From Vibrio pomeroyi (GTDB taxonomy: Bacteria; Pseudomonadota; Gammaproteobacteria; Enterobacterales; Vibrionaceae): a stretch of 64,000 bases of DNA. The stretch covers positions 1,302,001-1,366,000 of the forward strand of contig NZ_AP025506.1 of NCBI RefSeq assembly GCF_024347595.1. Direction: 5' to 3'. Below, in pieces: positions 6,743 to 36,812 of this stretch (position 1 is its first letter; every line of letters starts with the position of its first letter). The notes beneath the pieces were generated by a model that saw only the letters and a program-made list of their open reading frames with translations, was not told the DNA's origin and ran no database searches. Position numbers and translations under genes: made by a program.

Positions 6743-6750
6743 GAATGACT

Positions 6751-9114
6751 ATGAAAGTATTAAAATCATGTGGGATAGCTCTAGGCATTTCGGCGCTGGC
6801 AGCTTGTGGGGGAGGCTCTGGTGATTCTGGTTCAACCTCTCAACCTCAACAACCATCTTCTCCATTAGAAGTACCTATTGAAGCTTCAGTAATTCAATCA
6901 AAAGCGTTGGTCAATATTGAGTCTCAAACTATTGTCAAAGTAGATTCAGACATTGATTTTCGTTTAACGTCAGTGATGCAAGTAAGCAATGGTAACTATT
7001 GTGATGTCATCTCAATTGAAGGTATGACGTTTACAACCTTATCTACTGAGGTTGGCGAATGCCAATTTGAATATAAAGTAGAACCCGTTGAGCAAGATGT
7101 TTACGCCGGGCAAGCATCATCACTCGCAAGGGTATCTGTCTCTGAAACTGCTGATAACAATACACTTCCGAATTTGTCAGAAACGACCGATATTGATTCG
7201 GCAGTGACTATTGATTTGTCTGAAGAGCTAAATAGTGAACTAGATACGTCTATATATATTGTGTCGGAAGAGGTGACTTTATTAGGAGCAGGTTCAGTTG
7301 AAGTCGATTCGCTAAATAATACGATCACATATACTCCGAACGATATTGGTGTGACACGTATTATGTACTCAATGAGTGATGGCTCTTCAACCAAACTCGG
7401 AAACATCGACGTAGCTGTCTCTGATACTGGCAATACACCACCAATCGCTAATGACTTTATTCGAGAAGGTAAGCTTGCCAAAGATATGTCGGTTGAAATT
7501 GACCTAACAGACTATGTCTCGGACGCTGAAGACAGTGTGATCTTAGATACTGTACGTGCCTATAACGCTGAAGCGGAAATTACCTCAACAACCGAGCACA
7601 CTTTTACGTTTCAGTCGTCTGAACCTGGTCCACATGAGGTCGCATATACAGTGACAGACGGGCGTGGAGGCTATGCTGTTGGCCAAGTTTATATCGAAGT
7701 AGAACCTGACTTTAGTCTCGTACAAGGTTGGGAAGATATCACGCTGTCGGATCAAGTAATAGGTAGTAATATTACGTTTTCAGCACCTATGTCTAAAGCT
7801 ATGGCTGATTATGTTAATGCCGACTATTTATCGATTCGAGAAGAAGATGGTAAATATGGTCCAAAGGGGGCTCTAGTGGTTCAAATGAATTGGACACAAG
7901 CTAAAAGTTATTGTGCAACTAGAGGTGGACGGTTGCCATTAGAAAGAGAGTTACATAGTTTATTTGGCGTTAATCCATTCCCTAATGAAAACTGGCCAAC
8001 ACATACGCCTTATTGGTCTGCAAACCGTACATCTGCTACTGATGGCACCCAGATATCTTTGGTTGATGGTCTCTCAAATACTATGGACATGAATGGACTA
8101 GGGTATGTTTCATGTGTTTATTTTGATGAAAACGTAAAAGATTTCTCAATCAAGGAAATAAATAGTGATGATTATGACGATCCGAGAAACACAACAAGGT
8201 ATATATCAGCCGTGTTAGTAGATCCTGATGGTCAGATAGCTCCTTTTCAAAGCGTAGAATTTTGGACTAGAAATAATACTGGAGGTTTTGGTTCGACTAA
8301 TAACGACCTTAGCACTATTTCAATTACAAATTCTCAAGGTTATGCCACAGCGATATATGAGTTTACTAATGGAAATGAAGATTTTGTAATGGCACAGTAT
8401 GGTGATAGTGCAATATTTACATTAGTTAGTTTGGAAGCATCAGGCTTTGATGTAACCAATCCTGATGATTGGAATATTTCTAAAATCTACGGGTCGACAG
8501 ATATAAGCGAATACCAACCCATCACAAGTGCGAGTGGAACTAAAGTAGCTTTAGGAGAAACCTCAGAGTACATTACAGCTATTTCAAAAACTATGGTTAT
8601 GGGTACTGATGTTGAAATTAAATTTGGAGTGGATAGAACCAACACAGATAGTTTGCACCATGGAAATACAAACATAATATTGCAACAAGTTAGCTCCAAA
8701 GCTCCGGATTATAATAAAGCTTGTTATATTGAAGTATATGGTGATTGCCAATGGTCAGAAAATGATAAAGATACAGCAGGCATGCCAAGGAACGACAATC
8801 GCTGGCTAGCTTTTATATTTGATTATTATGGAAGTAAAATAAAATTAAGTACACCAGATGGTATTGTTGCAACAGGTACCTTGTTAAACGAAAATATACG
8901 ACAACTGTATTATAGAATTAGCATTGATGGGGCGGATATTAACATATATCAGGCAACCAGTAAGGACTTTTCTGATGAAACCTTATCTATATCTGAAAGT
9001 ATTAGTAGTACGGAGATTGATGTGAATAAATTTTACTACTTTGGACTTTCTGGAGGTGCACACTCACGGTCGGGGGTTCACGCGACAGTAAACTATCTAG
9101 ATATAACGCAGTAA
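6751..9114 (+). CDS. Large surface lipoprotein with Ig-like and lectin-like regions (copy B)
   Basis: Paralogue of the preceding gene, starting 8 bases after its stop. ATG 6751 is preferred over ATG 6745 because AGGA at 6741-6744 is properly spaced only from 6751. The signal ends in lipobox ALAAC, followed by a glycine/serine linker. Shared blocks with copy A include YTVTDGRGGY, VEPDFSLVQGWEDI, MADYVNADY, YCATRGGRLPLEREL and NWPTHTPYWSA. After the DPDGQIAPF block the two proteins differ greatly, although both end in a similar-length beta-rich domain (ILQQV and GLSGGAHSRSG here; LIQQLG and LSIGGKN in A), perhaps a concanavalin-like lectin fold. The C-terminal third uses many AT-rich codons. 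Likely co-transcribed with copy A; role inferred as ligand binding at the surface. Confidence 0.8.
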   Translation: MKVLKSCGIALGISALAACGGGSGDSGSTSQPQQPSSPLEVPIEASVIQSKALVNIESQTIVKVDSDIDFRLTSVMQVSNGNYCDVISIEGMTFTTLSTEVGECQFEYKVEPVEQDVYAGQASSLARVSVSETADNNTLPNLSETTDIDSAVTIDLSEELNSELDTSIYIVSEEVTLLGAGSVEVDSLNNTITYTPNDIGVTRIMYSMSDGSSTKLGNIDVAVSDTGNTPPIANDFIREGKLAKDMSVEIDLTDYVSDAEDSVILDTVRAYNAEAEITSTTEHTFTFQSSEPGPHEVAYTVTDGRGGYAVGQVYIEVEPDFSLVQGWEDITLSDQVIGSNITFSAPMSKAMADYVNADYLSIREEDGKYGPKGALVVQMNWTQAKSYCATRGGRLPLERELHSLFGVNPFPNENWPTHTPYWSANRTSATDGTQISLVDGLSNTMDMNGLGYVSCVYFDENVKDFSIKEINSDDYDDPRNTTRYISAVLVDPDGQIAPFQSVEFWTRNNTGGFGSTNNDLSTISITNSQGYATAIYEFTNGNEDFVMAQYGDSAIFTLVSLEASGFDVTNPDDWNISKIYGSTDISEYQPITSASGTKVALGETSEYITAISKTMVMGTDVEIKFGVDRTNTDSLHHGNTNIILQQVSSKAPDYNKACYIEVYGDCQWSENDKDTAGMPRNDNRWLAFIFDYYGSKIKLSTPDGIVATGTLLNENIRQLYYRISIDGADINIYQATSKDFSDETLSISESISSTEIDVNKFYYFGLSGGAHSRSGVHATVNYLDITQ

Positions 9115-9177: not shown

Positions 9178-9205
9178 CTACATATATAAATCAAGTTAAT
9201 TAAAA

Positions 9206-11068: not shown

Positions 11069-11137
11069 CTTAAAACACTAACCTTTTGATAATTAACTTA
11101 ATACAGTTGATTCTAATTTAGACATCCGACTCGCTAT

Positions 11138-11174: not shown

Positions 11175-11296
11175 TTGTTCGGATTGTTTGAACTGTATGT
11201 TGCGCATGTCCCTAAAAGGCAAAGTGCCAAATTAGTGACGTCAAATCTATGGCATTCCGCCTAGAGACTTGTCAATCTACTGTGAAGTGCGCGTTA

Positions 11297-21769: not shown

Positions 21770-21796
21770 GCCATTGGAACCGTATCTGGAAATTGT

Positions 21797-24700: not shown

Positions 24701-25312
24701 AACCGTTACACGCATCACTTAACAGAAGAATACACGTTGTTTGGTAAGTACAACTATTCAATTACAGAGAGTGAAACCACTGGCGAAACCATGGCGCAAT
24801 TTACCGAGGCGACGGGCGGACTTGCGTATCGTCCGATCTACAACGATCGACTCAACTTACTGAGCCGCTACACCTATATTGCAGACTTCGATCAACTGGA
24901 TCGCGATGTGGATTATCAAGACGAAACTAGCCAGATAATTGAAGTTGAAGCGATCTATTCAATCGATCAGCACTGGGACGTCGGCACTAAATATGCGCAT
25001 AAAGACAAAGAGCAAGCCTTCGAGCGAGCGTCTGGTGCGAATGAGATGGTCAAGAGCGACATCGACTTATACGGACTGAGTGCTTCTTATCGCGTAATGA
25101 AAGAGTGGGATGTCACGGGTGAGTATCACTGGAAAACCGACACACTCAATGATGAGTTAGAGCACGGCGCGCTGGTCTCTGTCAACAAGCACATCGGTGA
25201 AAACTTAAAAATGGGCATTGGTTATAACTTCTCTGCGTTTGATAGTGATTTAACCAACGATGATGATTATGACGCTTCAGGTGTGTTCATTAACTTAGTC
25301 GGTAAGATTTAA
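21797..25312 (+). CDS. Large outer-membrane protein with C-terminal beta-barrel
   Basis: 1,171 residues, 27 bases after the giant repeat gene. It has a signal peptide (MKVFSKSRLATCVLAAIPVMAVA). The N-terminal 320 residues contain Ig-like beta domains (YYIKKYQLEVYRVGD; KDGNMDVTTVGV) and an acidic linker rich in D and N at about 185-205. From about residue 300 (YYAQTGLADLYVGKNN) to the end the pattern is alternating amphipathic strands with acidic turns, typical of a big outer-membrane barrel. Family-like blocks include HDEFLGTGGSLYFLRHGE and PLEPGVDYDFDPYQGRIILTKPL, which I recall from barrel proteins found together with DUF11 repeats. There are no cysteines in the mature chain. It is probably the outer-membrane partner that anchors or exports the repeat protein; that role is inferred. 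No TonB box or plug domain is evident. Confidence 0.8.
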   Translation: MKVFSKSRLATCVLAAIPVMAVAKDTGKLEKLGSETTGIEITKPNQDQDSSRIYLEQGAIWASRDITRFDPVLDVSVSDELEVEQGTLRDSVGFTITTNYGYYIKKYQLEVYRVGDFGLSEPIAVLDGDKLANDSDINWDGQTDVDYQFKVGEQLMFRLKAWDKDGNMDVTTVGVTDLVKPDSEVDIDRNDNDDEESKDKSYGQAKLMRHNIPTNAGLAKFIGTGLKGVDKVIIGEDEFDVEDGNLYAEQYLPTDSYIFPTKVVFDNGDERRYKLYVRIPDTYYAQTGLADLYVGKNNVSGNSDALSVDDQYQDDIYNQGRLAYFGQGKFGDKLRVTTHFDTRESEIKDMFKHPFASDDSDVFDILEDDDELYYGNYGDSSNIEKVVNTKGKVYLNVEYDKSQYLWGNYNTGLTGTENNDYNRSLYGFKADYRTRDTTQYGEDRLNVVGFTAEADSLYAHDEFLGTGGSLYFLRHGEAVPGSDKVYVKVKDESGLVQNEIPLEPGVDYDFDPYQGRIILTKPLDNILSDSFGSVIENGDDYENFLVVDYEYVPQGSDSLDAMSYGGRAKGWINDYVGVGVTYATQEKDNQDYESYGTDLTLRATEGTYIKAEFARSEGTQTESNFVSIDGGLTFTPIGDTLEDREGDSIQITAVTSLYDLAPTIFGAVGNDLKLWYRDKDAGYSYASSSDDLEQEAYGAELRLQATDRLAVLSRFSTNEERDIDGNLEADTETIEVETQVKITEHIKVSAAGQQTEELNQNDEQSDATLAGVRLEYMWDSDNSVYIKGQTTVSQSDDYDENDSASIGAEFQVLEDLSLGGEYTDGDRGQVAEATVTYDVSDDHSTYVTYVDDNYEGENNVIVGQRADLTSSVDFYQENQFVDENDGHGRIDSYGFGYDVTEDVEMGIGYQLGEIEDDENITTERESISFNASIDLDDITLSHKFEYRVDKSEDDPEIAQRELQQIVTTNRYTHHLTEEYTLFGKYNYSITESETTGETMAQFTEATGGLAYRPIYNDRLNLLSRYTYIADFDQLDRDVDYQDETSQIIEVEAIYSIDQHWDVGTKYAHKDKEQAFERASGANEMVKSDIDLYGLSASYRVMKEWDVTGEYHWKTDTLNDELEHGALVSVNKHIGENLKMGIGYNFSAFDSDLTNDDDYDASGVFINLVGKI

Positions 25313-25375
25313 GCCAGCCCCAAAGAGGGAAGAGCGTAGAGAGTAGAGATTTTAAAGTTGAAGATTGAACGTAAA

Positions 25376-26371
25376 ATGAAAATAACAATTGGCCTAGTCA
25401 GCGGCGTAATGAGCGCTTTGCTTCTTGCTGGCTGTGCAACCGACACCTATGTGAGTCAAGAAAATCGAGATAAGTTTGCCGGCTTAGATGTGTCTAAGTT
25501 TTTGATTAGCGAATGTTTAGCGCCTGAACGCGAAGTGCACATTGCGATTGCAGAGCACTTTGCTTTTGATAAATACAAACTGCGCGATCTCGACAAGATC
25601 AACCTAGATACCTTTGTCGAAGAGATCAGAGGCCTAAAAGGGCGCATCACGATCGTTGGACACACCGATTACAAAGGCTCGTTGGATTACAACCAGCGCC
25701 TTTCACAACGCCGTGCTAAGTCGGTCGCAGACTATTTGAAAGCGCACCTCGACCCAACGAGTTACGACTGGGAAGTGAAGCACCTTGGTGAGACTCAACC
25801 TCTATTGTTAGGCAAAACCGATAAAGATCGAGCGGAAAACCGCCGTGCGTTTATCGTGTTTGAAGAAGCTCAGAAGTACGAAGAGATGCCTTTCTGTGAA
25901 CCACCAAAGCCTGAGCGTAAAGTGTACATGGCAATGACGCCACACTTTGATTTTGATAAATCAGTACTTAAGCCAGAAGACTTAACTCAGTTGGATGATT
26001 TCACAGCGCAATTAAGTGGTTTGCAAGGCAGCATCTTGGTCGCAGGACACACCGACCAAGCGGGTTCGGTTTCTTACAATGAGAAGTTAGCGGAGCGCCG
26101 TGCAAAAACAGTGGTTGAATACCTTAAAACTAAACTCGACCCGAATCAGTTCATTTGGGAAGTGAAGTCGTTTGGTAAATTGCAGCCAGCAATCAATGAA
26201 CGTTCAGATAAAGCCGATGCGCTCAACCGTCGAGCGTTTATCGTGTTTAAAGAGTCGGATATTACTGCCGAGCAACAAATGCTTTCCGGCAGTCAGCAGC
26301 AGGCGCTTTCTGACAGTGAAGAGCAAGCTTTGACTATAGAGAGTAAGCAGGAAGCTTCAGCTGACAACTAA
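25376..26371 (+). CDS. Lipoprotein with two OmpA peptidoglycan-binding domains
   Basis: 331 residues from the ATG at 25376; an in-frame TTG at 25358 would add six. Lipobox LLAGC gives a 20-residue signal. Two OmpA-C domains lie in tandem: domain 1 with HFAFDKYKL, GHTDYKGSLDYNQRLSQRRAKSV and NRRAFIVFEE; domain 2 with HFDFDKSVL, GHTDQAGSVSYNEKLAERRAKTV and NRRAFIVFKE. Both keep the Asp and Arg residues that bind diaminopimelate in this family. The C-terminal tail is Q/E/S-rich. It is the last gene of the stalk operon, followed by a strong terminator. The expected role is to tie the outer-membrane partner or the outer membrane to the cell wall. Duplicated OmpA-C domains in one lipoprotein are unusual. 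Confidence 0.88.
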   Translation: MKITIGLVSGVMSALLLAGCATDTYVSQENRDKFAGLDVSKFLISECLAPEREVHIAIAEHFAFDKYKLRDLDKINLDTFVEEIRGLKGRITIVGHTDYKGSLDYNQRLSQRRAKSVADYLKAHLDPTSYDWEVKHLGETQPLLLGKTDKDRAENRRAFIVFEEAQKYEEMPFCEPPKPERKVYMAMTPHFDFDKSVLKPEDLTQLDDFTAQLSGLQGSILVAGHTDQAGSVSYNEKLAERRAKTVVEYLKTKLDPNQFIWEVKSFGKLQPAINERSDKADALNRRAFIVFKESDITAEQQMLSGSQQQALSDSEEQALTIESKQEASADN

Positions 26372-26449: not shown

Positions 26450-26941
26450 TCAATCTATCTTGGGGTAGCTGCCTTGAATCCTGGCAAATTGAGTCTGTAC
26501 CTTTTTAAACTGCAGCTCTTCATCGAATGACATGACGACCTTGTGTTCTCCCTGAGCCTTTAACCGAACGTCAAAAAGCCGATTGTTGGCATTGATGAAG
26601 TCACGTTTTAACTCCGGGGATAAGTGGTCGTCTACATGTAAGTACCTTGACTCCAAAATAAGAAAATAGAGCGTGTTTTGCGTGAAGCCAACTAACCCCG
26701 AGCTCTTTCTCGTTGTGCCGTCAGACAGAATATTCACAAAGGTAAACACACCATTATTGATGTAGACATGCAGCGAACGTTCCGGACCACTTAAAGAGCT
26801 CTCAAGTGTGAATTCATACCCGACGAGTTTGATCCAAGGGCTTATCAAAAGCAAAATCGCCAGTAGCAAAGATACCTTCCATAATGAGATTCTACCAGAA
26901 GCCCAAATCGCCCCTAAATTGAATGTTTTCGATTTTTTCAT
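26450..26941 (-). CDS. Small membrane-anchored periplasmic protein, distal pilus operon (ToxS-like position)
   Basis: 163 residues with one N-terminal membrane segment (WKVSLLLAILLLISPWIKL, about 21-39) and a periplasmic domain of about 120 residues. Core signature: GVFTFVNILSDGTTRKSSG then NTLYFLILES. The same layout (G-x-F/Y, a turn with GT/GxG, then D/N-T/S-x-Y/F-x-L/F-x-L/V-x-S/D) recurs in the protein encoded just before it and in the two proteins at 35138-36048, so all four seem to be one family. Its start lies 50 bases inside the upstream gene. It is the last gene of the pilus operon, before a terminator. No known family recognised; partner of the winged-helix regulator is inferred. 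Confidence 0.7.
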   Translation of the reverse strand: MKKSKTFNLGAIWASGRISLWKVSLLLAILLLISPWIKLVGYEFTLESSLSGPERSLHVYINNGVFTFVNILSDGTTRKSSGLVGFTQNTLYFLILESRYLHVDDHLSPELKRDFINANNRLFDVRLKAQGEHKVVMSFDEELQFKKVQTQFARIQGSYPKID

Positions 26942-27317
26942 GTTCCAACCGTTTTCGCATATAAATTGTATTTTTATCAGAGCTTAGCTGTGCGACATTG
27001 ATTTTAGATAAGTGCTGAATCGCATCGAGTTTTAATACCTCCCTGTCGTCAATGTTGGGATTAAGAAATTCGTAGTCTTTGTCTAACGAGAGCATGAATA
27101 CCGTGTCATTGAGCACGGCATAAACGCCATATCCTTTTCTCACTACTTCATGTGGCAGAAACTGAACCGATGAATAAAGACCGTGGAAAAATTGCATGTG
27201 GGTTTCGGCATGTCGCTTAGTCTGCCCAGAGTAAATTGAGAACTCGCCGCCAGTGGCATTGATATAGGGAATAGCCAAAATGGCTAAGATAATCAGTAGT
27301 GGTCGTTTGAGCTTCAT
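26892..27317 (-). CDS. Small membrane-anchored periplasmic protein downstream of winged-helix regulator
   Basis: 141 residues, with a single N-terminal hydrophobic segment (LLIILAILAIPYI) acting as anchor or signal, then a periplasmic domain. It aligns well with the 35138-35593 product: GVYAVLNDTVFMLSLDKDYE here against GIYASLGDSLYFFSLDGDYE there, and both end in FRGDLGFW / IQGRLKVWD. The start is 7 bases after the stop of the winged-helix gene and the end overlaps the next gene by 50 bases. By position and topology it resembles ToxS/TcpH, the periplasmic partners of membrane-bound transcription factors, but no sequence similarity to them is claimed. Confidence 0.75.
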   Translation of the reverse strand: MKLKRPLLIILAILAIPYINATGGEFSIYSGQTKRHAETHMQFFHGLYSSVQFLPHEVVRKGYGVYAVLNDTVFMLSLDKDYEFLNPNIDDREVLKLDAIQHLSKINVAQLSSDKNTIYMRKRLEHEKIENIQFRGDLGFW

Positions 27318-27324
27318 GAAAACC

Positions 27325-27876
27325 TCAGTTGAAAATCGAGTGATAGAGAGTAAAAGCGTAAGTCCAGATACCTACCGTCAGTATCAGGTCTTCCCAACGA
27401 AGCCGCTGGTGCTTGCGAGTGCAACTAGAAATGCCTGGATTAATTCGTTTCCTCTTCGCTCTTTTTTCCACTGATAGAGGGCTTATAGGATCAGTACCTG
27501 AGGCTTTGAGTCGTTTATAACTCGCACTCCGTTTGATGCTGGGCAGCTCGCCTTCTCCAACCAACTGAATGGAAGTCGGAATTAACAGCTTGTAGCCATG
27601 TGACGGCACTACGCGTATTTCTGAGTCGTCAATGATGGCCTTAAGTTTTTTCCTCAGGTGCATGATGCAGACATTCAACGAATTTGGGCCAACCACACGA
27701 TCTGGCCAACCCGCCTTTTTCAAGTCTTGACGACTACAAGGCTTATAACTGTTGTCATAGAGAACATGCAGCACATTAAACTCGATGGTGCTCAGAGAGA
27801 TGGAGTGCAACAGAGTGAGTGGTTCTCCGTCATAGAGTTCTAATGCATCTCGTTTTGAATTTAGATACAACAACAT
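27325..27876 (-). CDS. Membrane-anchored winged-helix regulator (ToxR/CadC class), pilus operon copy
   Basis: 183 residues. An OmpR/ToxR-type winged helix occupies about residues 1-100 (STIEFNVLHVLYDN, KKAGWPDRVVGPNSLNVCIM, LRKKL, VPSHGYKL). A basic linker of about 60 residues (KRAKRKR) leads to a single membrane helix at the extreme C-terminus (LILTVGIWTYAFTLYHSIF). It ends right after that helix, so there is essentially no periplasmic domain, unlike ToxR, TcpP or CadC. It shares GWPxRVVGxNSLxVxIMxLRKKL with the regulator at 34534. Starts 3 bases after the OmpA-LysM stop. Likely regulates the pilus promoter; inferred from position. Confidence 0.82.
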   Translation of the reverse strand: MLLYLNSKRDALELYDGEPLTLLHSISLSTIEFNVLHVLYDNSYKPCSRQDLKKAGWPDRVVGPNSLNVCIMHLRKKLKAIIDDSEIRVVPSHGYKLLIPTSIQLVGEGELPSIKRSASYKRLKASGTDPISPLSVEKRAKRKRINPGISSCTRKHQRLRWEDLILTVGIWTYAFTLYHSIFN

Positions 27877-27879
27877 GGC

Positions 27880-28704
27880 TTAATTACAGTGCTCGCTAGG
27901 AAGAAACACGATATCGCCCGCATGAATCAAGTCGATATCTTTGAGATCTGTAAAGCTATGATTGTGCTTTTTGAGTTCTTCAAAACTAATGTGGTGATTG
28001 TGAGCAATCTTAATCAGCCAATCGTCTTTTTTAACGATATAGCGAACAGTCTCGCAGGTTTGAGGCTCTACTTCAGCGACAACCTTAGGTTCATACACCG
28101 TCACTTCTGACGTAGAAGAGACAGAAATGTCGTCGTACACAATCGGTTCAAGTACTGATTCATTTTGTGTCGGGAAATGGTAGCGCATACCGACACTGAG
28201 AACTTGCAGATCTTTTTCTGGGTCATCGCTGAAGATGAACTTATAGCCGAACTTCATGGTGAGCTGTTCGTCGAACTCATACTCTAAGCCGAGTTGGCTG
28301 ATTGGAGACCATGTATTGCCCTCCAATAACGAACCCGCGCCAGCGTAAAGGTTGTAATGGCGTGACAGTGGGATCGTCCCGAGTAACGAAATATCCGTGC
28401 TGTTGAATCTTTTTTCCTCAACTTCTGAATAGGGGAGGTCTGGTTCTTTCATGGTTTTAATGTGTCCGTAAAAGCCAGTGCTGGCTTCGACAGACCACGT
28501 TTTGTTTAGGTCGTAACCCAATAGAATTTGACCACCAAATGCGGTATCAGATACCTCCGAGTTTGTTTTGCCTGCGTTCGTGACGTCAGCTCCGATGTAA
28601 AACGGAGAAGTGTCGGCCAAGCATAGGTTAGGCAGCATTAAGGCTCCGGCGATAACGTATTTCGTCCTTAAAGCGTCACCGAAAGAAAAAGCCGATAGTT
28701 TCAT
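27880..28704 (-). CDS. OmpA-type barrel protein with C-terminal LysM domain
   Basis: 274 residues. A signal peptide ends near NLCLA (about 30). An OmpA-like 8-strand barrel follows (FYIGADVTNAG, GGQILLGYDLNKTWSVEASTGFYGH, YNLYAGAGSLLEG, LGLEYEFDEQLTMKFGYKF, VGMRYHF, about 33-183). After a Val/Glu-rich linker comes a LysM-like domain (VRYIVKKDDWLIKIAHNHHISFEELKKHN cut at the usual turn, ending AGDIVFLP, about 218-270). It would sit in the outer membrane with LysM gripping peptidoglycan. It shares a base with the tip-protein stop and is followed by the regulator gene, so it is an integral operon member. Its presence in a chaperone-usher operon is unusual. Confidence 0.8.
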   Translation of the reverse strand: MKLSAFSFGDALRTKYVIAGALMLPNLCLADTSPFYIGADVTNAGKTNSEVSDTAFGGQILLGYDLNKTWSVEASTGFYGHIKTMKEPDLPYSEVEEKRFNSTDISLLGTIPLSRHYNLYAGAGSLLEGNTWSPISQLGLEYEFDEQLTMKFGYKFIFSDDPEKDLQVLSVGMRYHFPTQNESVLEPIVYDDISVSSTSEVTVYEPKVVAEVEPQTCETVRYIVKKDDWLIKIAHNHHISFEELKKHNHSFTDLKDIDLIHAGDIVFLPSEHCN

Positions 28705-29744
28705 TAGTACAGTTCCTCAAACATCACGGTGAAGTTTCCTGAATAAGTACCGGTTTCAACGTCTGTCGAAGGAATATTCTGGTAGTTAACATTAAGATCG
28801 AAATTGATCACTGAGCTCGGTGACTGAATCACATAGCTGGTTTGATTATTGTCGAGTTGATTGACGCCATTTTTAACCCAATCTGTATCCTCACAGCTCG
28901 CTTCATTGCATTGGATAGAGTAGGGAATCGATGTCTTACCTGATGCTGATGTCAGCTCAAATTCGTTGGTGAGTAGTGTCATTGATAAGCCAGTACTGAA
29001 TTGGCCTAGCGCAGTGATATTGAACGTGGTCTGCGCTGAGACAGTATGATTCGTTGTGTCATACACTGGGCTCAATACACCATCGCCTACCACATTGATG
29101 CTTTCTAAGCTGTTTGGTGTGTAATCGATATTGACGGTAAAAACGTCAGGCAAAATTCGATAGGTTAGCGCTCCACCCGCAGAGCGGTAGTAGTATTTGA
29201 TGTCAGCAGGGATCGTTGCCGTGTAGACACCTTTTGCCTGACCTTGAAGTGCATTCAATAGTGAGGCTGTGTCTATGTTGAAGGTTGGGCGATAGAAATA
29301 AAACGGCGTGATGGATTGCGGATACTCCAATGAGAAATCCGCACTGCAGCTTTGTGTATCACTATCATGAAGCGTAACGATGTTTCCCGATAATTGAGAT
29401 TGGCTGCATACCGGTGTCACGAACAGGTTGTCACCGCGCGTGAAAGGGTTTGATGCCGTATTGTATTGCAGACCATTGACTGCTATTGCCGCTTCCACAC
29501 TCTGACCAGCATTACTGGTTAATGTCATGGTGTCTGGTTTGTCTGTAATAAACGCACTTGGCAAAAACTGACTCGTTGTCGTGAGGCCACTCGCGATAGA
29601 CCAATCACTCAAGGTGTAGTTATTTCCACCGAGTGTGATGGCGTTTTCAAAGCGTATCTGTTGCCCCTCAATATTGATGTTGAGAGTGGCTGCATAATTT
29701 GGCATAGCCGCGAACAGTAGCGACCATAAAACGAGTCGTTTCAT
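28704..29744 (-). CDS. Pilus tip adhesin-like minor subunit (CfaE/CooD position)
   Basis: 346 residues with signal peptide MKRLVLWSLLFAAMPNYA. The mature chain is beta-rich with two halves of about 160 residues, as in the two-domain tip adhesins of CS1-type pili. It has paired cysteines (VCSQSQ / SCSADF and QCNEASCEDTD) consistent with disulfides. The second half ends in alternating strands (GTYSGNFTVMFEELY) reminiscent of pilin-domain C-termini with GxYxGxxxV. It overlaps the chaperone stop (TAATG) and the OmpA-LysM start by one base each. Sequence similarity to CfaE is not obvious by eye; the call rests on operon order, size and fold pattern. Confidence 0.65.
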   Translation of the reverse strand: MKRLVLWSLLFAAMPNYAATLNINIEGQQIRFENAITLGGNNYTLSDWSIASGLTTTSQFLPSAFITDKPDTMTLTSNAGQSVEAAIAVNGLQYNTASNPFTRGDNLFVTPVCSQSQLSGNIVTLHDSDTQSCSADFSLEYPQSITPFYFYRPTFNIDTASLLNALQGQAKGVYTATIPADIKYYYRSAGGALTYRILPDVFTVNIDYTPNSLESINVVGDGVLSPVYDTTNHTVSAQTTFNITALGQFSTGLSMTLLTNEFELTSASGKTSIPYSIQCNEASCEDTDWVKNGVNQLDNNQTSYVIQSPSSVINFDLNVNYQNIPSTDVETGTYSGNFTVMFEELY

Positions 29745-30442
29745 TATTTGCTCTCGCTCAGAGTCACATCTTGGCGGTAACTTTCGTCGTGGTTAACAAC
29801 AGTGACTTTTAGGTCTGAAAGATCGATGTTTTCCGGTAGAGGGTAGTTACGCTCACGGCCAGCTAGAGACATGATCGTGACTTCACAATCTTCTGTTACT
29901 TCATCTGTGCATTGATCGACATAGGCACGCACAAAGCTGTTACCTGTGTTGTTGATGTGCAATTGGCCTTGATCTAAAGAAATCGAGTAATCAATATTTT
30001 GAGCTTGTGCAGGGATAACAAACAACGGTCGGTAGCCAAAGTTGATTGTCACTGCTGAATTCAGCTTGCCTTCAGGGTCGTATGGCGAAGGTTCAAAGCT
30101 GACGAGGTAGTACTGGTCTTCAGTGAAGTCACATTTGTTACCACACAAAGAGCGCACGCCAATTTGCTTTTGACGGTGGGGTTCTAGGATGGTTTTGTTA
30201 TGAGTCAGCGTGACGTGCCAATCTTCAAAGTTGTTTTCTGAGTATGGAACACGCGTGATCTCGCCATCTTCAACCACCAATTGAGTAATGTTGGATTGGA
30301 TGAATTCCGTGATCTTGTTGCTGTTAGTTAAAGTGAATACACCGTTTCCGTATTCGTCTCCAACCAATAACATGGTATCGACGTTCATCGCGTTAACAGA
30401 GGTTGCAAGAGCAGCAGTCAGTAAAATAGGAAGCTTTTTCAT
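29744..30442 (-). CDS. Periplasmic pilus chaperone, CS1/alpha type
   Basis: 232 residues with signal peptide MKKLPILLTAALATSVNA. It has two Ig-like halves: N-terminal strands (MLLVGDEYGNGVFTLTNSN, WHVTLTHNKTILEPHRQKQIGVRSLC) resemble the groove and G1 region of pilus chaperones, and the second half (DQGQLHINNTGNSFVRAYVDQC) carries the typical N-N-x-G turn. Four cysteines occur as two pairs. It begins 2 bases after the usher stop and overlaps the tip gene by one base. Its partner would be the usher upstream. CS1-class chaperones diverge strongly from PapD, which fits the weak similarity. Confidence 0.75.
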   Translation of the reverse strand: MKKLPILLTAALATSVNAMNVDTMLLVGDEYGNGVFTLTNSNKITEFIQSNITQLVVEDGEITRVPYSENNFEDWHVTLTHNKTILEPHRQKQIGVRSLCGNKCDFTEDQYYLVSFEPSPYDPEGKLNSAVTINFGYRPLFVIPAQAQNIDYSISLDQGQLHINNTGNSFVRAYVDQCTDEVTEDCEVTIMSLAGRERNYPLPENIDLSDLKVTVVNHDESYRQDVTLSESK

Positions 30443-30444
30443 AA

Positions 30445-33228
30445 TCAGTTACCTTTAGGTCGGTTAAGTACAAAGTTGTGCTCTCGTAGCGATTCCGAAT
30501 TGGCGTAGCGAGCAACATTTTCTATGTGTTGACGTTGTTGATGACTGAGTTGAAGATCCTTATTTACAGTCAGGTAAACAAAAGAAGTACGACCTAGACG
30601 AGTGGTAATAAACTCCATCCCGCTGTCAGTCAGTGCATGCAATTGTTCGTTCAGTGTGTTGATGTCATCGAATTCACCGATGTACATCACGTTAATTTCT
30701 TCGTTGTTGCTAACCAACATCATTGATTCCATTGGATTCAAGTTTGGTTGGCAGAAGTTAGTACCAAAATTCAGCTGTTTCGCATCGTCGACAGAAGGTA
30801 AATAACACTGCTGACCATTACTGGTTAGTGCGAACTGTTGACCTTCTTGTACATCGACTTTATGAATGCCAGACGTAATGCTTGATACGTTCAAACAAGC
30901 AGGGCCTTCACATTCAATGTCGTGTACATCGTTGCCGAAAATATCTTTGAATTTGCTGACAAAACTGATCACACGGCTCACGTTTGAATTCAATTCGATG
31001 ACCGAACCAGGGTGTGTGTATCCTGTTACCGATTGCTGGCCAGTGTTGTGCAAAGCGACGCTCTCGACATCAAGCTCGATGGTTGCGGCTTGGTAGTCGT
31101 CTAGCGTAATGACTGCTCGGTCGTCGTAGATGTATTGTTTGTTCATCACTTGGTCATCGGTTCTTACCACCACCAAGCCTTTGGTTTTGCGTTCATCGGC
31201 ATCAAATCGAATGTTGTTTTGGGTATCGACAACCACATAAGCATCACTTTGTGCTGTAGTGAAACTCACGCTCTCGCCACCAATAATTTGGGTACTGCGT
31301 AATGTCGCGTTTAACGCTTTTTCGCCATTGTTCGCGGCGTACACATAGCCATCAGCTTGGTAATGCTCATCCCGTTTAGCTGCATACGCTGTTACATTCG
31401 TCACCGCCGCATTAGGGGAGTTAACGTAGTAACTGTTACTGGCAGTAAGTCGTAAATCGGTATCTTGGTTTTCGACTAAATCTTGTGTCTCTAAGCTGTT
31501 GGTGTATTGGCTAAAGCCATTCTCTGTGACGGTGAAACCTGTGTTGCCAGTAAGCTTCGACGAAAGAGGTACCGACCAATTGAGAGAGATGGAGAGTTCA
31601 CCATCGTCCCAATTGGATGTCAGTTGCTCATTGTTAAAGGTGACGTTCAGGTCGAGAGTTGAATCGACAATAAACGGTGCACTTAAACCAGAAGACAGTG
31701 ACCAGTTACTTAGCGAACTGTTGTATAAATTACTTTGTTCGATGTAATTCACTGAGCTATACCCACGCACCGTGTCACCAATGGTGTAGCTGGTGGAAAT
31801 ACCGAGCTGTTCTTTGTCACTGACACCGTATAAGTATTCTGCAAATGGGTTTTGGTCTGGGTTGTTTAGGCGCTCATAGGTAAAGCCCAAGCTGCCAAGG
31901 TTCCAATAACCAGACAAATACCAAGCTTCGCTATCGATGTTCGAAAGGAACATTTCATAGCGGCTATCGAATGGCAGGTAGCCTTTAAAACCCAATTGGC
32001 CCATCGCATGTTCGTTGGTCAAAGTGCTACCAATCGCGACCGTCTGTGTGTCCGACCATTTATAAGCCAACCCACCTTGAAGAAATGCCACGCCTTCGAA
32101 TTCATTAGTTGAAGACATCCCTGATGGTTGGTCTTCGTCACTCTGATAAGTGTCGTTGTTTTGAAATTGGCCTGCGGCGATCGAGTAATCGAATTCGCCA
32201 GTATTCAATGTGTCTGTATTCGCGTTGTAAATTCGTACCGATTCAGAAGAGACCACTTGAGTACCTACGGAGATCTCAACGGTTACGTCATAAACGCCAT
32301 TGGGTAGCTCTGAGTAGCTGATGCTGCCTTGGCCTTCTTGTACAGACTGCTGCACGATGATTTGCTCATCGCGGAATATCTTGAGTACGCCTTGTGTTTG
32401 CGCATAGAAGTACAGCGATTGGTCTTCGTTTTTAGCGGTACGGCTTAGGTTCTTGCTCGAAGACAAATTCACGTTTACGTCATGATATTGCGTGCTGTTG
32501 AGCAAGAAAGAGGTGCTGTTTAGCGCCAAGCGATCTTGGTGGTAGCCTGCTGTTAAACGCAGGTTTTGGTACTCTAAGTTGTAGTAACCGTAATTCAGTT
32601 CAGATGCATCTTCTTGGTTGCTCAGATAGGTATCGACATGAACTGAGCCATAAGGCAGCCCCAAGATGAATTGATCGCTTAAATTCACATTCAAGTTATT
32701 AGTAAAATCGCTTGATGTGTACAAGCTTGCGTTGTTAATCAAGCCTGGGTTTGCGTTGTAAGTCGACGCGTAATGCTTCTTGAGAGCTTTCGGTTTGCTT
32801 TCCTCAAGCAGTTCTTTGTTCACATAGAGGTACAGCTTGTTCGAGTGATAGTCATAAAATGTGTCATAGCTTTTCGGTGTTAGGCTACATAAGTTCAGGT
32901 CACCTTGGCAGTCGACAGTATTCGATTGACCGTGAGTAAACCCAGCGACTATCTGCTTTGCTGTACGCTCATTTAATCCTGATGACATCAGTTCATTTGC
33001 AACGGCAGCCGCATCTTCAGGGTTGCTGAATTGCACTGAATCGTAAGTTACCGACATAGGAATCGTCATGTAACGGCCATCAATGTTTTTTATCTCGACA
33101 TCGCGCTCTTGTTTCGAATAAAAATCTTCAAATCCCGCTGGGATTAAAGTGTTTCCATTAGCAAAAACCAGTTGTGACAAGGTCAACGAACCTAAGATCG
33201 TTGTTGTAATAAACGTGCTGTTTTTCAC
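30445..33228 (-). CDS. Outer-membrane usher, TcfC/CooC type
   Basis: About 927 residues. The GTG at 33228 is the likely start: GGAG lies 7 bases upstream, the signal peptide KNSTFITTTILGSLTLSQLVFA follows, and the GTG overlaps the TGA of the minor pilin gene (GTGA), implying coupled translation. The mature protein has an N-terminal domain with a Cys pair (VDCQGDLNLCSL), a large barrel region with repeated short strands (GLPYGSVHVDTYLSNQ, GYHQDRLALNS), a plug-like segment (VLKIFRDEQIIVQQSV, YSELPNGVYDVTVEI), and a C-terminal domain with more Cys pairs. The plug motif and size match alpha-clade ushers of CS1-like pili rather than FimD/PapC. It assembles and secretes the two pilins and tip protein. 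Confidence 0.88.
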   Translation of the reverse strand: MKNSTFITTTILGSLTLSQLVFANGNTLIPAGFEDFYSKQERDVEIKNIDGRYMTIPMSVTYDSVQFSNPEDAAAVANELMSSGLNERTAKQIVAGFTHGQSNTVDCQGDLNLCSLTPKSYDTFYDYHSNKLYLYVNKELLEESKPKALKKHYASTYNANPGLINNASLYTSSDFTNNLNVNLSDQFILGLPYGSVHVDTYLSNQEDASELNYGYYNLEYQNLRLTAGYHQDRLALNSTSFLLNSTQYHDVNVNLSSSKNLSRTAKNEDQSLYFYAQTQGVLKIFRDEQIIVQQSVQEGQGSISYSELPNGVYDVTVEISVGTQVVSSESVRIYNANTDTLNTGEFDYSIAAGQFQNNDTYQSDEDQPSGMSSTNEFEGVAFLQGGLAYKWSDTQTVAIGSTLTNEHAMGQLGFKGYLPFDSRYEMFLSNIDSEAWYLSGYWNLGSLGFTYERLNNPDQNPFAEYLYGVSDKEQLGISTSYTIGDTVRGYSSVNYIEQSNLYNSSLSNWSLSSGLSAPFIVDSTLDLNVTFNNEQLTSNWDDGELSISLNWSVPLSSKLTGNTGFTVTENGFSQYTNSLETQDLVENQDTDLRLTASNSYYVNSPNAAVTNVTAYAAKRDEHYQADGYVYAANNGEKALNATLRSTQIIGGESVSFTTAQSDAYVVVDTQNNIRFDADERKTKGLVVVRTDDQVMNKQYIYDDRAVITLDDYQAATIELDVESVALHNTGQQSVTGYTHPGSVIELNSNVSRVISFVSKFKDIFGNDVHDIECEGPACLNVSSITSGIHKVDVQEGQQFALTSNGQQCYLPSVDDAKQLNFGTNFCQPNLNPMESMMLVSNNEEINVMYIGEFDDINTLNEQLHALTDSGMEFITTRLGRTSFVYLTVNKDLQLSHQQRQHIENVARYANSESLREHNFVLNRPKGN

Positions 33229-33743
33229 AGTGAAAGCTCCGCTAAAACAGATAACTGGCCTTGGCACAGGTTTGAGCCTGTCGGTAAAGCCCCAAAGGAT
33301 AAGGTCACGTCGTATTCGCCACCCTTTAGGTCGTCTGATGAGGTATTGAAATCCATCAGAACTGGGTTCGATGAAGTTAAGGGTTGATCCGCGACAGTGA
33401 CATCGACAAGGTCAGCAGGCGTTGGTAATGTTTGCTTATCAATATCGAAACACTGCGCTGTATTGCCCGTCATGAATAACTGGAACCGAGTCGATTGGTC
33501 TGAACTTGGAATATCGGTCTCAACCAATAACTGGGTTGTTGCATCACGGAAAGAGTCGCTTTTTGGATCGACCGTTAATGTCAATGAAGAAGGGGAAAAC
33601 GCGACCTCTGTAATCTGATAAGAGAAAAAATTCTTTTTATCGATATCGCTCGTTAACTGGAACGTATGAGTTTCTGCATTGGCATAAAAGCTCATAACGC
33701 CTGCAGTCAACAGAACGAGAAGTGGGCGAGTTAAGTAATTCAC
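33225..33743 (-). CDS. Pilin subunit 2 (CS1-type, probable minor pilin)
   Basis: 172 residues from the GTG at 33743, with GGGGA five bases upstream; a TTG at 33755 is also possible but lacks a site. The signal peptide ends FYANA. The mature chain is a beta-rich pilin of about 149 residues with two cysteines (QCFDID, NLCQGQL) and C-terminal strands GGEYDVTLSFGA ... QLSVLAELSL, similar to the GxYxGxVxVV end of CS1/CFA pilins. It lies between the first pilin and the usher, with its stop overlapping the usher start. It is probably an ancillary or alternative shaft subunit. Confidence 0.72.
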   Translation of the reverse strand: MNYLTRPLLVLLTAGVMSFYANAETHTFQLTSDIDKKNFFSYQITEVAFSPSSLTLTVDPKSDSFRDATTQLLVETDIPSSDQSTRFQLFMTGNTAQCFDIDKQTLPTPADLVDVTVADQPLTSSNPVLMDFNTSSDDLKGGEYDVTLSFGALPTGSNLCQGQLSVLAELSL

Positions 33744-33760
33744 AGTTTTCCCCAAACGAC

Positions 33761-34279
33761 TTAAAGCTGTTCTACGTAGCTGGCAGCCATTTGCACTGAG
33801 ACAGTAGCATTGCCTTGTACTGGAATATCAGTAATCTCAATGTCATTCTTCACGGCGAGCTTGACATATGAAATGTCAATCACGGTAGGCGTTGCTTTCT
33901 GAAGTTCCAAACCGTCGTCGTAAACTTTGATCTCAGCTTGGTCGGAGACTTGACCGTCAAGCAAAAGCTGAGATGTTACGTAAGTCCAGGTAGCTCCAGG
34001 TTGTCGGTCACCAACTGTTGCGGTTTCTGGGTCAAACTGACGAGATTCGAGTACCACTTCCGACGATGAGAATGTACCTTTTGAATCAACGTATAATTTG
34101 CCTGTTTCAATGTCTCCACCGCCCAAACCAGTGATGATTAGATTAGAGCTTGGAATCGACGAACCAATGTCACCAGACCAAATTACATTAGCGATAGCCG
34201 CATCATCTGCCGCGTATACCGAACCAGAAGTCATAGCGAATGCTGTTGCACCCATCACGAAAAAGTTATTAAGTTTCAT
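33761..34279 (-). CDS. Pilin subunit 1 (probable major pilin)
   Basis: 172 residues from the ATG at 34279 (AGGTG upstream; an in-frame GTG at 34288 is less well placed). Signal peptide MKLNNFFVMGATAFAMTSGSVYA, then a mature beta-rich pilin of about 149 residues without cysteines. The chain ends VSVQMAASYVEQL, an alternating strand pattern typical of donor-strand pilins. First gene of the pilus operon and first after the divergent control region, so it is likely the most expressed subunit. Sequence relation to CfaB/CooA is faint; the assignment depends on the usher/chaperone context. Confidence 0.72.
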   Translation of the reverse strand: MKLNNFFVMGATAFAMTSGSVYAADDAAIANVIWSGDIGSSIPSSNLIITGLGGGDIETGKLYVDSKGTFSSSEVVLESRQFDPETATVGDRQPGATWTYVTSQLLLDGQVSDQAEIKVYDDGLELQKATPTVIDISYVKLAVKNDIEITDIPVQGNATVSVQMAASYVEQL

Positions 34280-34533
34280 CTTTGTCACCTATTGTTTATA
34301 AATGTATGTATAAAAATAAAAGGTGCATTGGAATCGAGATCACATGCACACTTTCGAGGTGACTGATTTGACTTCAATGGCGTATGAATTGGAAATAAAA
34401 GCCCGTTAATAGTGCTTTATACGCAGTTAATAACGTTTAATTTTTTAGGTTTATCACGGTTAACTGACTGATAAATCGTGTTTTATGTTTTTTTAGGCTA
34501 CTTTTAGTAGGTGGCAGTAATACAGGGAAAAGA
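34280..34533. promoter_or_regulatory. Divergent control region between pilus operon and second regulator cassette
   Basis: An AT-rich intergenic stretch of about 250 bases. It contains an inverted repeat TTTATCA (34450-34456) / TGATAAA (34469-34475) around CGGTTAACTGAC, and several GTTAAT/TTTAAT motifs at about 34403-34440 (GTTAATAGT, GTTAATAACGTTTAAT). These are plausible binding sites for the two flanking winged-helix proteins. Promoters must fire in both directions here. Exact -35/-10 pairs were not resolved. Confidence 0.5.
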
Positions 34534-35151
34534 ATGTTTAAAAGACTTTCTATAGATACAGTAAGAAGAACCATCACTTTGATAGACAGTGACTCTGGGC
34601 AGGAGAATCAACCCTTAGAACTGAACCGAAGTGAATACAACTTGCTGTTGGCTTTCTGTGAATCACACGGAGAAGTGATTGATAAGCAGGCGTTGATAGA
34701 GAAAGGTTGGCCAGGAAGAGTGGTTGGTGATAACTCTTTGGCCGTTGCTATCATGAAGTTGAGAAAAAAGTTAGACAGTTTAGAGCTTGGGTTTGAAGTG
34801 AATAATTTGCCCGGAGAAGGGTATGTGTTCATCAACGCCATGAACATTGAAATTGTTCATGATGAATCTGCAGCAAATAATGAAGCGGTCATTGAGTCTC
34901 ACGAATTAGGTCATGATAAAGAGACAATTCAAGAGCCCGTTTCTCAGGCAGCTGATGACAATGTAGAAACGCCGATGACGACTCAAGATTCGACCGTGTC
35001 TTCCGACTCTAACGTGTTTCAACGTTGGAGCAAAAAGCCCGTTGTTTGGGAAATCACCATTGCACTGTTTATCGGCCTAATCATGTTCTACTTCGTTTAT
35101 CGAGAAGCCTTCGAGTGCTTTGAGTGTTTCGGCGGGGGTGCTGGTGGTTAG
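34534..35151 (+). CDS. Membrane-anchored winged-helix regulator (ToxR/CadC class), divergent copy
   Basis: 205 residues; ATG with AGGGAAAAG upstream. The winged helix spans about 1-105 (LNRSEYNLLLAFCESHG, EKGWPGRVVGDNSLAVAIMKLRKKL, LPGEGYVF), followed by an acidic linker rich in E, S and T (about 110-160). One membrane helix follows (VVWEITIALFIGLIMFYFVY, about 168-188) with a short tail of about 15 residues containing CFECFGGG. As with its paralogue at 27325, there is no real periplasmic domain. It is the first gene of a three-gene cassette overlapping the next gene, divergent from the pilus operon, which it probably controls. Confidence 0.85.
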   Translation: MFKRLSIDTVRRTITLIDSDSGQENQPLELNRSEYNLLLAFCESHGEVIDKQALIEKGWPGRVVGDNSLAVAIMKLRKKLDSLELGFEVNNLPGEGYVFINAMNIEIVHDESAANNEAVIESHELGHDKETIQEPVSQAADDNVETPMTTQDSTVSSDSNVFQRWSKKPVVWEITIALFIGLIMFYFVYREAFECFECFGGGAGG

Positions 35152-35593
35152 CCTTAAGTCTTTGAGCCTACGGATTGGGCTTTTTATTGTGGTGCTGTTT
35201 TTGGTGCCGTGGTTTTTGTCTTTGGGTACTTACTTTTCTGGCTATGCTCACTTTGAAGACGATGAACATGACATTATTTTGAACGCAAAATCTGGCCTTT
35301 ATAAGACCATCCACAGTTATGAAGGGCAGGTGTATCGAGTGCATCGAGGGATTTATGCATCTTTGGGTGACTCATTGTATTTCTTTTCCTTAGATGGTGA
35401 TTATGAAGCGAACCTTGACCCCGAGTTTGCAGCCAAGGTTGTGGCGAGCGACTTGGAAAACTATTTTAGAGGTTTAACCCATGTGCGTATCGCTGAGCAA
35501 AATGGCAAAGTGATTGGGTTATTGCAGAAAGACGATATTAAAAAGAAGTTCGACCAAGTCGTAATTCAAGGACGGTTAAAAGTATGGGATTAA
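35138..35593 (+). CDS. Small membrane-anchored periplasmic protein, partner of regulator at 34534
   Basis: About 151 residues. The start is uncertain: GTG at 35138 or 35144 (near a GGCGGGGG stretch), or TTG at 35120. All overlap the end of the regulator gene. One N-terminal membrane segment (IGLFIVVLFLVPWFLSL) precedes a periplasmic domain of about 120 residues with GIYASLGDSLYFFSLDGDYE. It is paralogous to the 26892-27317 product along most of its length, including the terminal IQGRLKVWD. The arrangement recalls ToxR-ToxS and TcpP-TcpH, but similarity to ToxS/TcpH is not seen. Confidence 0.75.
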   Translation: MLVVSLKSLSLRIGLFIVVLFLVPWFLSLGTYFSGYAHFEDDEHDIILNAKSGLYKTIHSYEGQVYRVHRGIYASLGDSLYFFSLDGDYEANLDPEFAAKVVASDLENYFRGLTHVRIAEQNGKVIGLLQKDDIKKKFDQVVIQGRLKVWD

Positions 35594-36048
35594 CAAGAAA
35601 AACGAAGGTTCTATCCATCATTGTCTTACTTGTATTGCTACTACTTGTACCTTGGGCAAATGCCATGTTTAGCGACTTCAAAATAACCAGTCATTTCGAC
35701 GATCGTGATGTGACCATCATCGGCTCTCATGGTCGTTTCAAAGCTCAAGCCGCTTATCACGATGGTACTCATGCTGTCGGCACGGGCTATTATGGCACCT
35801 TACTTGATACGATTTACTTACTGACAGTGCGTAGTGATAAAGTCGTGGAAGGCAATCCTAACAATCTCAATGCGTTTCTTCGTTCCCACCAAACATTACT
35901 GGTTTTTAAGATTAAGCAAGACGAGCAAGGGCAATACGTTGTAAGAAGGCTTGAGGAGGACCCAAGGCTAGGAATGCACGAAAACAAAATTGAGGCCGCT
36001 GGATACTTTGGGCCGATTTCATCTATACCAACTCCAGCACCGTTATAG
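35584..36048 (+). CDS. Second small membrane-anchored periplasmic protein of the divergent cassette
   Basis: 154 residues; the ATG overlaps the previous gene by 10 bases. One N-terminal membrane segment (VLSIIVLLVLLLLVPWA, about 8-25) is followed by a periplasmic domain with GRFKAQAAYHDGTHAVGTGYYG and DTIYLLTVRSD. It corresponds to the 26450-26941 product (GVFTFVNILSDGTTRKSSG, NTLYFLILES) and more distantly to the other two small proteins, forming a four-member family in this locus. It is the last gene of the cassette, before a strong hairpin. Function unknown. Confidence 0.72.
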   Translation: MGLTRKTKVLSIIVLLVLLLLVPWANAMFSDFKITSHFDDRDVTIIGSHGRFKAQAAYHDGTHAVGTGYYGTLLDTIYLLTVRSDKVVEGNPNNLNAFLRSHQTLLVFKIKQDEQGQYVVRRLEEDPRLGMHENKIEAAGYFGPISSIPTPAPL

Positions 36049-36194: not shown

Positions 36195-36614
36195 TTATTG
36201 AGATGGCAAATTTTGTTTCAGCTCTAGAAGCATTTGATACGCACTTTCTCCAGACATCTCATAAGGGTTGAATTGATCAGATGTTGAAAACTGTAAGTTC
36301 ACTAATTCGGTCAGGTTTGATTGCGGAATATCGCCCATCGACCAATCGCCAAACTCCCGACAATCTATCTCTTTGAAATACAAGATCATGACTTTCTCGT
36401 GCCGTTTATCATTGAGAATATGATTGTAGGTATGGTTAACCGCAGTTCTAGAACCTTCGATACATTGTAGGAAATACTTATCGTTGTGGCTAAGAAGGCC
36501 AGTTAAGTGGCTCTGCTTATTACGATCGTGTGAGATCTTGAGAATTTCATCTAAAGCCTTCGAGTCGCAGCTTTCACAAAGCGTACTGACATAGATTAAC
36601 CGAGTTAGGCGCAT
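36195..36614 (-). CDS. Short BLUF-domain blue-light photoreceptor
   Basis: 139 residues from the ATG at 36614; upstream ATG 36620 and GTG 36623 are in frame, but GAAG is best spaced from 36614. The BLUF flavin-binding core is complete: Tyr8 (LIYVS), Asn32 (DRNKQ), Gln50 (FLQCIEG), and Trp91/Met93 (DWSMG), the residues of the light-switch hydrogen-bond network. A C-terminal extension of about 40 residues ends MLLELKQ. No output domain is attached, so it must signal through a protein partner. It stands alone on the minus strand. Confidence 0.92.
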   Translation of the reverse strand: MRLTRLIYVSTLCESCDSKALDEILKISHDRNKQSHLTGLLSHNDKYFLQCIEGSRTAVNHTYNHILNDKRHEKVMILYFKEIDCREFGDWSMGDIPQSNLTELVNLQFSTSDQFNPYEMSGESAYQMLLELKQNLPSQ

Positions 36615-36812
36615 AGGCATCACTTCGAATTTTGTTCAAAAGGTACTAATAAATATAAGCCAAGCTCATGGAATTGCTAATTATTGGTAGAATTATCACT
36701 AAAGGATTTTTGGGAAAGGATAACAATCAGGATTCGTTAGAAAAGAAGTAGTGGAAATCGGTTTTAGAATAATGGGAGAGTTTATAACTTGATCGTTTCT
36801 GAGATAGGAGCC

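Follow-up and report, generated by a model that had tools for sequence, protein, structure and literature searches.

The window analyzed here, a stretch of 64,000 nucleotides from Vibrio pomeroyi (NZ_AP025506.1, positions 1,302,001 to 1,366,000), belongs to a 3.6-Mb contig, the larger of the two that make up a genome of 5.66 Mb. It contains a CS1-type chaperone-usher pilus operon, encoded on the minus strand from 34288 to 26450 in the order pilin, second subunit-like gene, usher, chaperone-like gene, adhesin-like gene, LysM barrel gene, and a cassette of one winged-helix regulator and two small partner proteins (R1, S1a and S2a). A second such cassette, R2–S1b–S2b, runs in the opposite direction (34534-36048, plus strand), divergent from the pilin promoter. 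A sequence-only reading of the window had proposed a CS1-type operon ending in R1, S1a and S2a and faced by a divergent R2–S1b–S2b set; all of these genes were found in place, and the operon type was borne out by the usher, which passes the cut-offs for both TcfC and CooC_C. The features of the locus, in window positions, are listed below.

33761..34288, minus strand: major pilin (assigned by position), fast-diverging
33225..33755, minus strand: second periplasmic pilus gene, by position; gene order conserved
30445..33267, minus strand: CS1-type usher (PF16967, TcfC, E 7.5e-14; PF15976, CooC_C, E 1.1e-11; both above cut-off)
29744..30442, minus strand: chaperone by position; relatives adjoin ushers elsewhere
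28704..29744, minus strand: tip adhesin, by its position in the operon
27880..28704, minus strand: outer-membrane barrel and LysM protein (PF13505, PF01389, PF01476)
27325..27876, minus strand: R1, winged-helix regulator (PF00486, E 2.9e-13; hydropathy)
26892..27317, minus strand: S1a, paralogue of S1b (pairwise match; hidden Markov model (HMM) cross-scores)
26450..26941, minus strand: S2a, fourth member of the S family (pairwise match; profile cross-hits; hhalign)
34289..34533, no strand: shared divergent control region of the pilin and R2 genes (aligned across the window and 9 further loci)
34384..34421, no strand: densest conserved block, candidate regulator or RNA polymerase site
34534..35151, plus strand: R2, winged-helix regulator (PF00486, E 6e-13; hydropathy; CxxC tail)
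35120..35593, plus strand: S1b, membrane-anchored lipocalin-like partner
35584..36048, plus strand: S2b, second membrane-anchored lipocalin-like partner

The likely start of S1b, judged from the starts of its homologues, is a GTG at 35144, which would leave an 8-bp overlap with R2; S1b and S2b overlap by 10 bp, and S1a and S2a by 50 bp. R1 follows the LysM barrel gene after 3 bp in the window and in seven of eight orthologues, and after 2 bp in the remaining one. Pfam assigned no family to the pilin or to the chaperone-like and adhesin-like proteins; the order and similarity of these genes are common to usher loci elsewhere. The CS1-type pili of enterotoxigenic Escherichia coli likewise have an usher with TcfC and CooC_C domains, and the extra LysM barrel gene is not known to be part of them.

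Regulators and partner proteins

Both regulators score above the Trans_reg_C cut-off and match each other at 33% identity over 104 amino acids (E 2e-16), and the matches of their profiles in the PDB include ToxR, CadC and TcpP chains. R1 (183 amino acids) has a predicted transmembrane helix at about residues 164-182 with a single residue after it; in R2 the predicted helix spans about residues 170-188 and is followed by a 17-residue tail, YREAFECFECFGGGAGG. By hydropathy, 0-1 residues lie past the helix in all nine R1-type proteins and 16-19 in all eleven R2-type proteins; the hydropathy peak is 2.05-2.48 in the R2 type and weaker, 1.29-1.67, in the R1 type, the single helix being a prediction. 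The C-terminal periplasmic alpha-beta domain expected of co-component regulators is thus missing from both, a point that had escaped the sequence-only reading. All eleven R2-type tails contain a CxxC motif (CFECF, CFDCF or CFECY), which R1 lacks; the R2 tail may be a remnant of a disulfide-bearing periplasmic domain. The winged helix of R1 retains the conserved core GWP...NSL...RKKL. The motif GWPxRVVGxNSL is indeed common to R1 and R2 but is not private to them, as close variants occur in the regulators with one partner described below.

S1a and S1b share 25% identity over 143 columns (E 7e-11), and S2a and S2b 25% over 64 columns (E 1e-4). Within the same genomes, searches with the S1 profile also pick up S2 proteins (E down to 4e-12) and those with the S2 profile pick up S1 proteins (E down to 8e-15); hhalign matches one profile to the other with a probability of 99.1 (E 1.3e-18). 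By these comparisons S1a, S1b, S2a and S2b are one family, which had also been overlooked; the similarity expected of the small proteins was significant by profile search. The suggested one-to-one pairing held in part. In HMM cross-scores S1a and S1b are mutual best matches (about 42 bits), but S2a is closer to S1a (31-33 bits) than to S2b (18-25 bits).

Pfam and NCBIfam gave nothing above cut-off for S1 or S2, and a PDB sequence search with both profiles yielded no meaningful match; the fold assignment therefore rests on models. When AlphaFold models of S1b and S2b were aligned by VIA-align to 1,000 and 999 PDB chains, respectively, ranks 1-5 were all ToxS or VtrC, with rank 5 about level with other barrels. 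Foldseek likewise placed ToxS first for the S1b model (E 1.7e-3, probability 1.00). Among the PDB chains compared, ToxS and VtrC are thus the nearest to both models, and the proposed analogy to a ToxRS/TcpPH-style sensor gains support from the predicted fold.

Each of S1a, S1b, S2a and S2b forms a clean clade (bootstrap 99-100; Shimodaira–Hasegawa-like approximate likelihood ratio test 97-99). The deeper order is less clear: the best tree weakly joins S1a with S2a (77/31), and constraints uniting S1a with S1b, S2a with S2b or S1a with S2b were not rejected by the approximately unbiased (AU) test (p 0.43, 0.42 and 0.36). For these trees the broken S1b of locus L046 (105 amino acids) was excluded, as it was from the cross-scores, the S1b of L041 was trimmed to its last 149 residues, and one of the two S2b proteins of genome G148 was used for the cross-scores and the AU-tested tree. 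In the regulator tree, R1 and R2 as sisters were neither rejected nor proven (AU p 0.33); it included 28 of the 49 one-partner regulators and only the first 125-135 residues, with the R2 of L043 cut beforehand to its last 205. A duplication, as proposed from the sequence, is likely from the shared R–S–S layout, but the trees prove sisterhood neither for R1 and R2 nor for S1a and S1b, and do not establish strict one-to-one descent of all three genes.

Recurrence of the cassettes and their one-partner relatives

The sample comprised 227 genomes of the genus, 40 of them matched by the usher query. The three-gene R–S–S form was found in ten, each time near a CS1-type usher; given 40 usher genomes, such linkage would arise by chance with a probability of 1e-8 if genomes were independent, which they are not. 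Both cassettes occur in nine of the ten (the window and L039-L046), so that the arrangement is repeated in eight further genomes. The tenth genome, G148, has a divergent R2-type cassette and an usher 52% identical; a further cassette of the R2 type lies at a distance of about 12 kb from the divergent one and 8 kb from the usher. The S1 profile matched ten genomes and the S2 profile eleven; the eleventh, G125, was dropped as weak (43 amino acids, E 0.008), and with a wider profile a one-partner cassette was found there on another contig, beside a FimD-type usher. The ratio of nonsynonymous to synonymous substitution rates (dN/dS) for the six cassette genes was 0.03-0.20 in 20 of 24 comparisons (dS computable), several dS values being near saturation, and by this measure all six look to be under purifying selection. 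Given the recurrence in eight further genomes and the low dN/dS, the arrangement is not due to chance.

Among the protein-database matches listed, the named homologues are all from Vibrio, including V. splendidus, V. crassostreae, V. lentus, V. chagasii, V. aestuarianus, V. owensii and V. parahaemolyticus. A plasmid origin was considered and rejected: neither the R2–S1b–S2b DNA nor an S1b protein had a match in 72,556 plasmid records. In genome G006 (C1:744065-746277), a CS1-type usher is split, with stops.

Within the 245-bp divergent region, the block at 34384-34421 is the same across eight loci in 30 of 40 columns, compared with 63 of 270 columns in the rest of the region (eight sequences, L043 and L047 being left out). 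Read towards the pilin, it is TAAAGCACTATTAAC...CTTTTATTT, and it is present even in L045 and L046, where pilin identity is down to 54 and 52%. In the window, TNAA half-sites lie about 11 bp apart, a phasing equaled by 7 of 1,000 shuffles and reached by none of 38 other divergent regions; the pattern was picked after looking at the region. These ToxR-box-like phased half-sites are suggestive only and serve as a lead. Pilin identity is 61-69% in L039-L044 despite usher identity of 92-98%, and against L040 the pilin dS is 1.26, with 0.15-0.18 for the operon genes labelled MIN, USH, CHAP and ADH. The pilin is far more diverged than the rest of the operon, which suggests allele exchange of the pilin.

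The profile of the S family was also extended with sequences from a second genus; the profiles that gave the sample derive in part from this locus, so that partners unlike these escape it. The widened profile matched 31 of 227 genomes of the genus, 25 of 52 in the second genus and 9 of 345 across the order (3 from this genus and 6 from two further families). Besides the usher loci, 46 further stretches were mapped (L171-L181, L199-L205, L225-L252). Every S gene in the mapped stretches has an R gene upstream on the same strand, except two cut by the stretch end. Of the 71 entries with an S gene, two were set aside, as the regulator lies beyond the stretch end (L047 18137, a gene that also appears in L089, and L204, at a contig end), leaving 69 complete cassettes: 20 with two S genes and 49 with one. 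The regulator tail measures 0-19 residues in all 20 two-S cassettes and 47-58 residues in 43 of the 49 one-S cassettes. The longer tails as a rule have two cysteines about nine positions apart (none in L234, L235 and L247). Among the 69, the two-S layout was found nowhere outside this clade.

Nine of the 49 one-partner cassettes lie near chaperone-usher genes: a tandem pair, with other genes between, downstream of the G021 CS1-type operon (L085/L090); one near the CS1-type operon of G316 (L252/L253); and those near FimD-type ushers at L171, L226, L227, L234, L235 and L247. Pfam confirmed Usher for L171 and L234 and a Fimbrial_K88 subunit for L226. The same tandem pair as in G021 is present in G136 (L225) on a 13-kb contig without an usher and was left out of the count. 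EAL-domain proteins (L171 8159-8911 and L226 9061-9747) directly adjoin the one-partner cassettes at two unlike chaperone-usher operons, hinting at a link to cyclic di-GMP. L242, from G021, has two one-partner cassettes facing each other end to end (7574-9992), and the stretch read there shows no usher. Ahead of the CS1-type usher of G316, L253 has two pilin-like genes (2946-3509 and 4392-4955) with identical first 60 residues.

Beyond the cassettes, a gene for a BLUF blue-light sensor (36195-36623) is convergent with the preceding S2b and is also present in L039-L042. At the other end of the window, an Ig-domain (Big_9) lipoprotein-like protein of the kind usual at CS1 loci is encoded at 6745..9114 on the plus strand, and homologues occur in 40 of 50 CS1 usher loci. 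This gene is no more than 2 kb from S2a in four relatives (L041, L043, L045 and L046) and far off in the window, where about 17 kb (9206-26371) between the two encode a two-headed helix-turn-helix (HTH) protein, a 3506-aa DUF11 protein, a 1171-aa protein and an OmpA protein. The two-headed protein (9206-11068, 620 aa) consists of two HTH_3 halves that share 54% identity and have relatives in 10 and 11 of the 50 CS1 usher loci. Genes for 305-324-aa proteins, by eye of the same HTH kind, are divergent from the pilin in L048, L050, L051, L053 and L060, which are loci without an R–S–S cassette.

Comparison with co-component systems

Statements on published systems, here and below, refer to parts of the cited papers. 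Co-component signal transduction is represented by VtrA/VtrC, ToxR/ToxS, TcpP/TcpH and GrvA/FidL (Kinch et al. 2022, PMC9214523). As in those systems, a membrane-tethered winged-helix regulator has downstream of it a gene, often overlapping, for a lipocalin-like partner of eight strands with an N-terminal anchor, and the sequences diverge fast (PMC9214523). Table 1 of that paper gives 14 regulator–neighbour pairs with one partner each, from a screen that excluded pairs without input domains. Unlike such pairs, the regulators described here expose 0-19 residues outside the membrane, have two paralogous partners and belong to a set that is present twice. Except for VtrA, the known co-component regulators have a disulfide in the periplasmic domain (PMC9214523). 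A 2026 preprint (PMC13042144) reports that bile induces a homodimer of ToxS and models ToxRS as a heterotetramer.

Fimbrial loci with one co-component pair are known from Yersinia (psaEF and myfEF; PMC9820224, PMC8407435, PMC10269533), which narrows the earlier statement that no pilus locus of this form had been described; the literature search turned up no description of a headless regulator with two partners or of the two copies. PsaE and PsaF are needed for a chaperone-usher fimbria, PsaF sensing pH and stabilizing PsaE (PMC8407435). The R–S cassettes resemble PsaEF and MyfEF in adjoining a chaperone-usher operon; they differ in that the Yersinia loci have one pair and another pilus type, and in the two-cysteine periplasmic domain of PsaE. 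R1 (183 aa, helix at 164-182) is laid out like V. parahaemolyticus VtrB, with its N-terminal winged-helix region (1-101) and C-terminal transmembrane helix at 159-181 (PMC12282083). Unlike R1, VtrB is part of a cascade under VtrA/VtrC, and no associated protein is listed for it in the part of PMC10269533 concerned. The known CS1-type members in enterotoxigenic E. coli are activated by the AraC-type Rns rather than by membrane regulators (PMC9820224). In a literature search that left most subscription papers outside its scope, no paper was recognised on this locus or on a two-partner co-component regulator. In kind, the system is co-component signalling; what is new is that the regulator lacks a periplasmic domain and has two paralogous partners, and that two diverged copies of the set flank a single pilus operon.

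Proposed control of the pilus operon

We consider it probable, drawing on gene content, homology, predicted fold, conservation, linkage and purifying selection, that both cassettes are ToxR/ToxS- and VtrA/VtrC-like switches controlling the operon they bracket, with S1 and S2 as the whole receptor and the 3' copy giving feedback. Activation, an S1–S2 complex, a ligand and the sign of the feedback are what we infer. R1 and R2 would be membrane-tethered winged-helix activators that have lost the usual periplasmic domain, and the S1/S2 pair would form the entire periplasmic receptor, holding or releasing the regulator via transmembrane and tail contacts. The two tandem partners may constitute a fixed heterodimer akin to the ToxS homodimer, functional without a regulator domain. 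Because it has its own promoter arm, R2–S1b–S2b would be the standing sensor and act first at the shared promoter. Transcription of the operon would then produce R1–S1a–S2a, a second switch with a diverged receptor, and so give feedback, most likely positive, which may result in bistable or dual-signal control. Feedback from inside the operon, already suggested by the sequence-only reading, fits the gene order.

Several observations weigh against this proposal. G148 has no R1-type cassette, and the S1b gene of G079 (L046) has an in-frame stop; because S1b is broken there, the R2-type cassette may be dispensable in that genome. The TNAA phasing is mixed across loci: in five of ten, no more than 15 of 1,000 shuffles do as well, but in the other five the number is 36, 112, 378, 510 and 500. 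Headless regulators with a single S exist (tails of 9, 6 and 3 residues in L171, L243 and L252), and a missing tail therefore does not require two partners; L199, L201 and L202 have one-S regulators with intermediate tails of 23-26 residues. The 20 two-S cassettes are kin by descent, so the correlation between tail and partner number may reflect one or two events. Dedication to one pilus, as first proposed, stands by location for the three-gene form, which was not found mostly away from pili (all ten occurrences being near a CS1-type usher). It does not extend to the one-partner family, where 40 of 49 cassettes have no usher-like reading frame in the stretch read; pilus control is therefore one use of the S family, not its sole one.

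Three other explanations were weighed. S1 and S2 might sense no ligand and, like TcpH and PsaF, mainly shield the regulators from regulated intramembrane proteolysis, with two copies setting the dosage. PsaF does stabilize PsaE, and TcpP/TcpH behave alike (PMC8407435), but R1 stops at the membrane and R2 extends just 16-19 residues beyond it, which leaves little for a periplasmic protease to grip, and a guard would not be needed in two copies just 25% identical; we regard this explanation as rather unlikely. A somewhat longer shot is that the two cassettes were recruited independently, with different regulons, and that their meeting is an accident kept by linkage. That the trees do not show sisterhood of R1 with R2 or of S1a with S1b would agree with this, as would the many unlike places at which R–S pairs occur; yet the two-S layout is found nowhere else among the 69 complete cassettes, and both sets stand together in nine of ten genomes.

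Least probable, in our judgement, is a brake, in which the 3' cassette yields a competitor: R1, nearly tailless, would occupy the same sites and shut the operon, producing pulses of pilus synthesis. R1 is diverged from R2 (33% identity), has no CxxC tail and, going by its place in the operon, is produced while the operon is active, all of which would suit a competitor, but its winged helix has kept the conserved core. ToxR and TcpP are activators. The analogues PsaE (PMC8407435) and VtrB (PMC12282083) are activators as well. Going beyond the proposed pair of switches, we tentatively put forward a bolder version, possible though doubtful, in which the S1 and S2 barrels are obligate heterodimers, a genetically fixed counterpart of the ToxS homodimer, and make up a complete receptor separate from the DNA-binding chain. 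The two diverged receptors would then read two signals in a two-input switch with memory: R2 would open the operon on one signal, and operon-made R1 would hold or close it on another.

It has long been asked how ToxR-type regulators pass a signal through the membrane, and most work on this has used regulators with a periplasmic domain. In this locus the domain is missing, the partner is doubled and two diverged copies surround a single promoter, so that simple gene removals can put the question to the test. The finding also extends cassettes of a regulator and its partner to the neighbourhood of several unlike chaperone-usher pili in the Vibrio family, outside the enteric pathogens from which these systems were first known.

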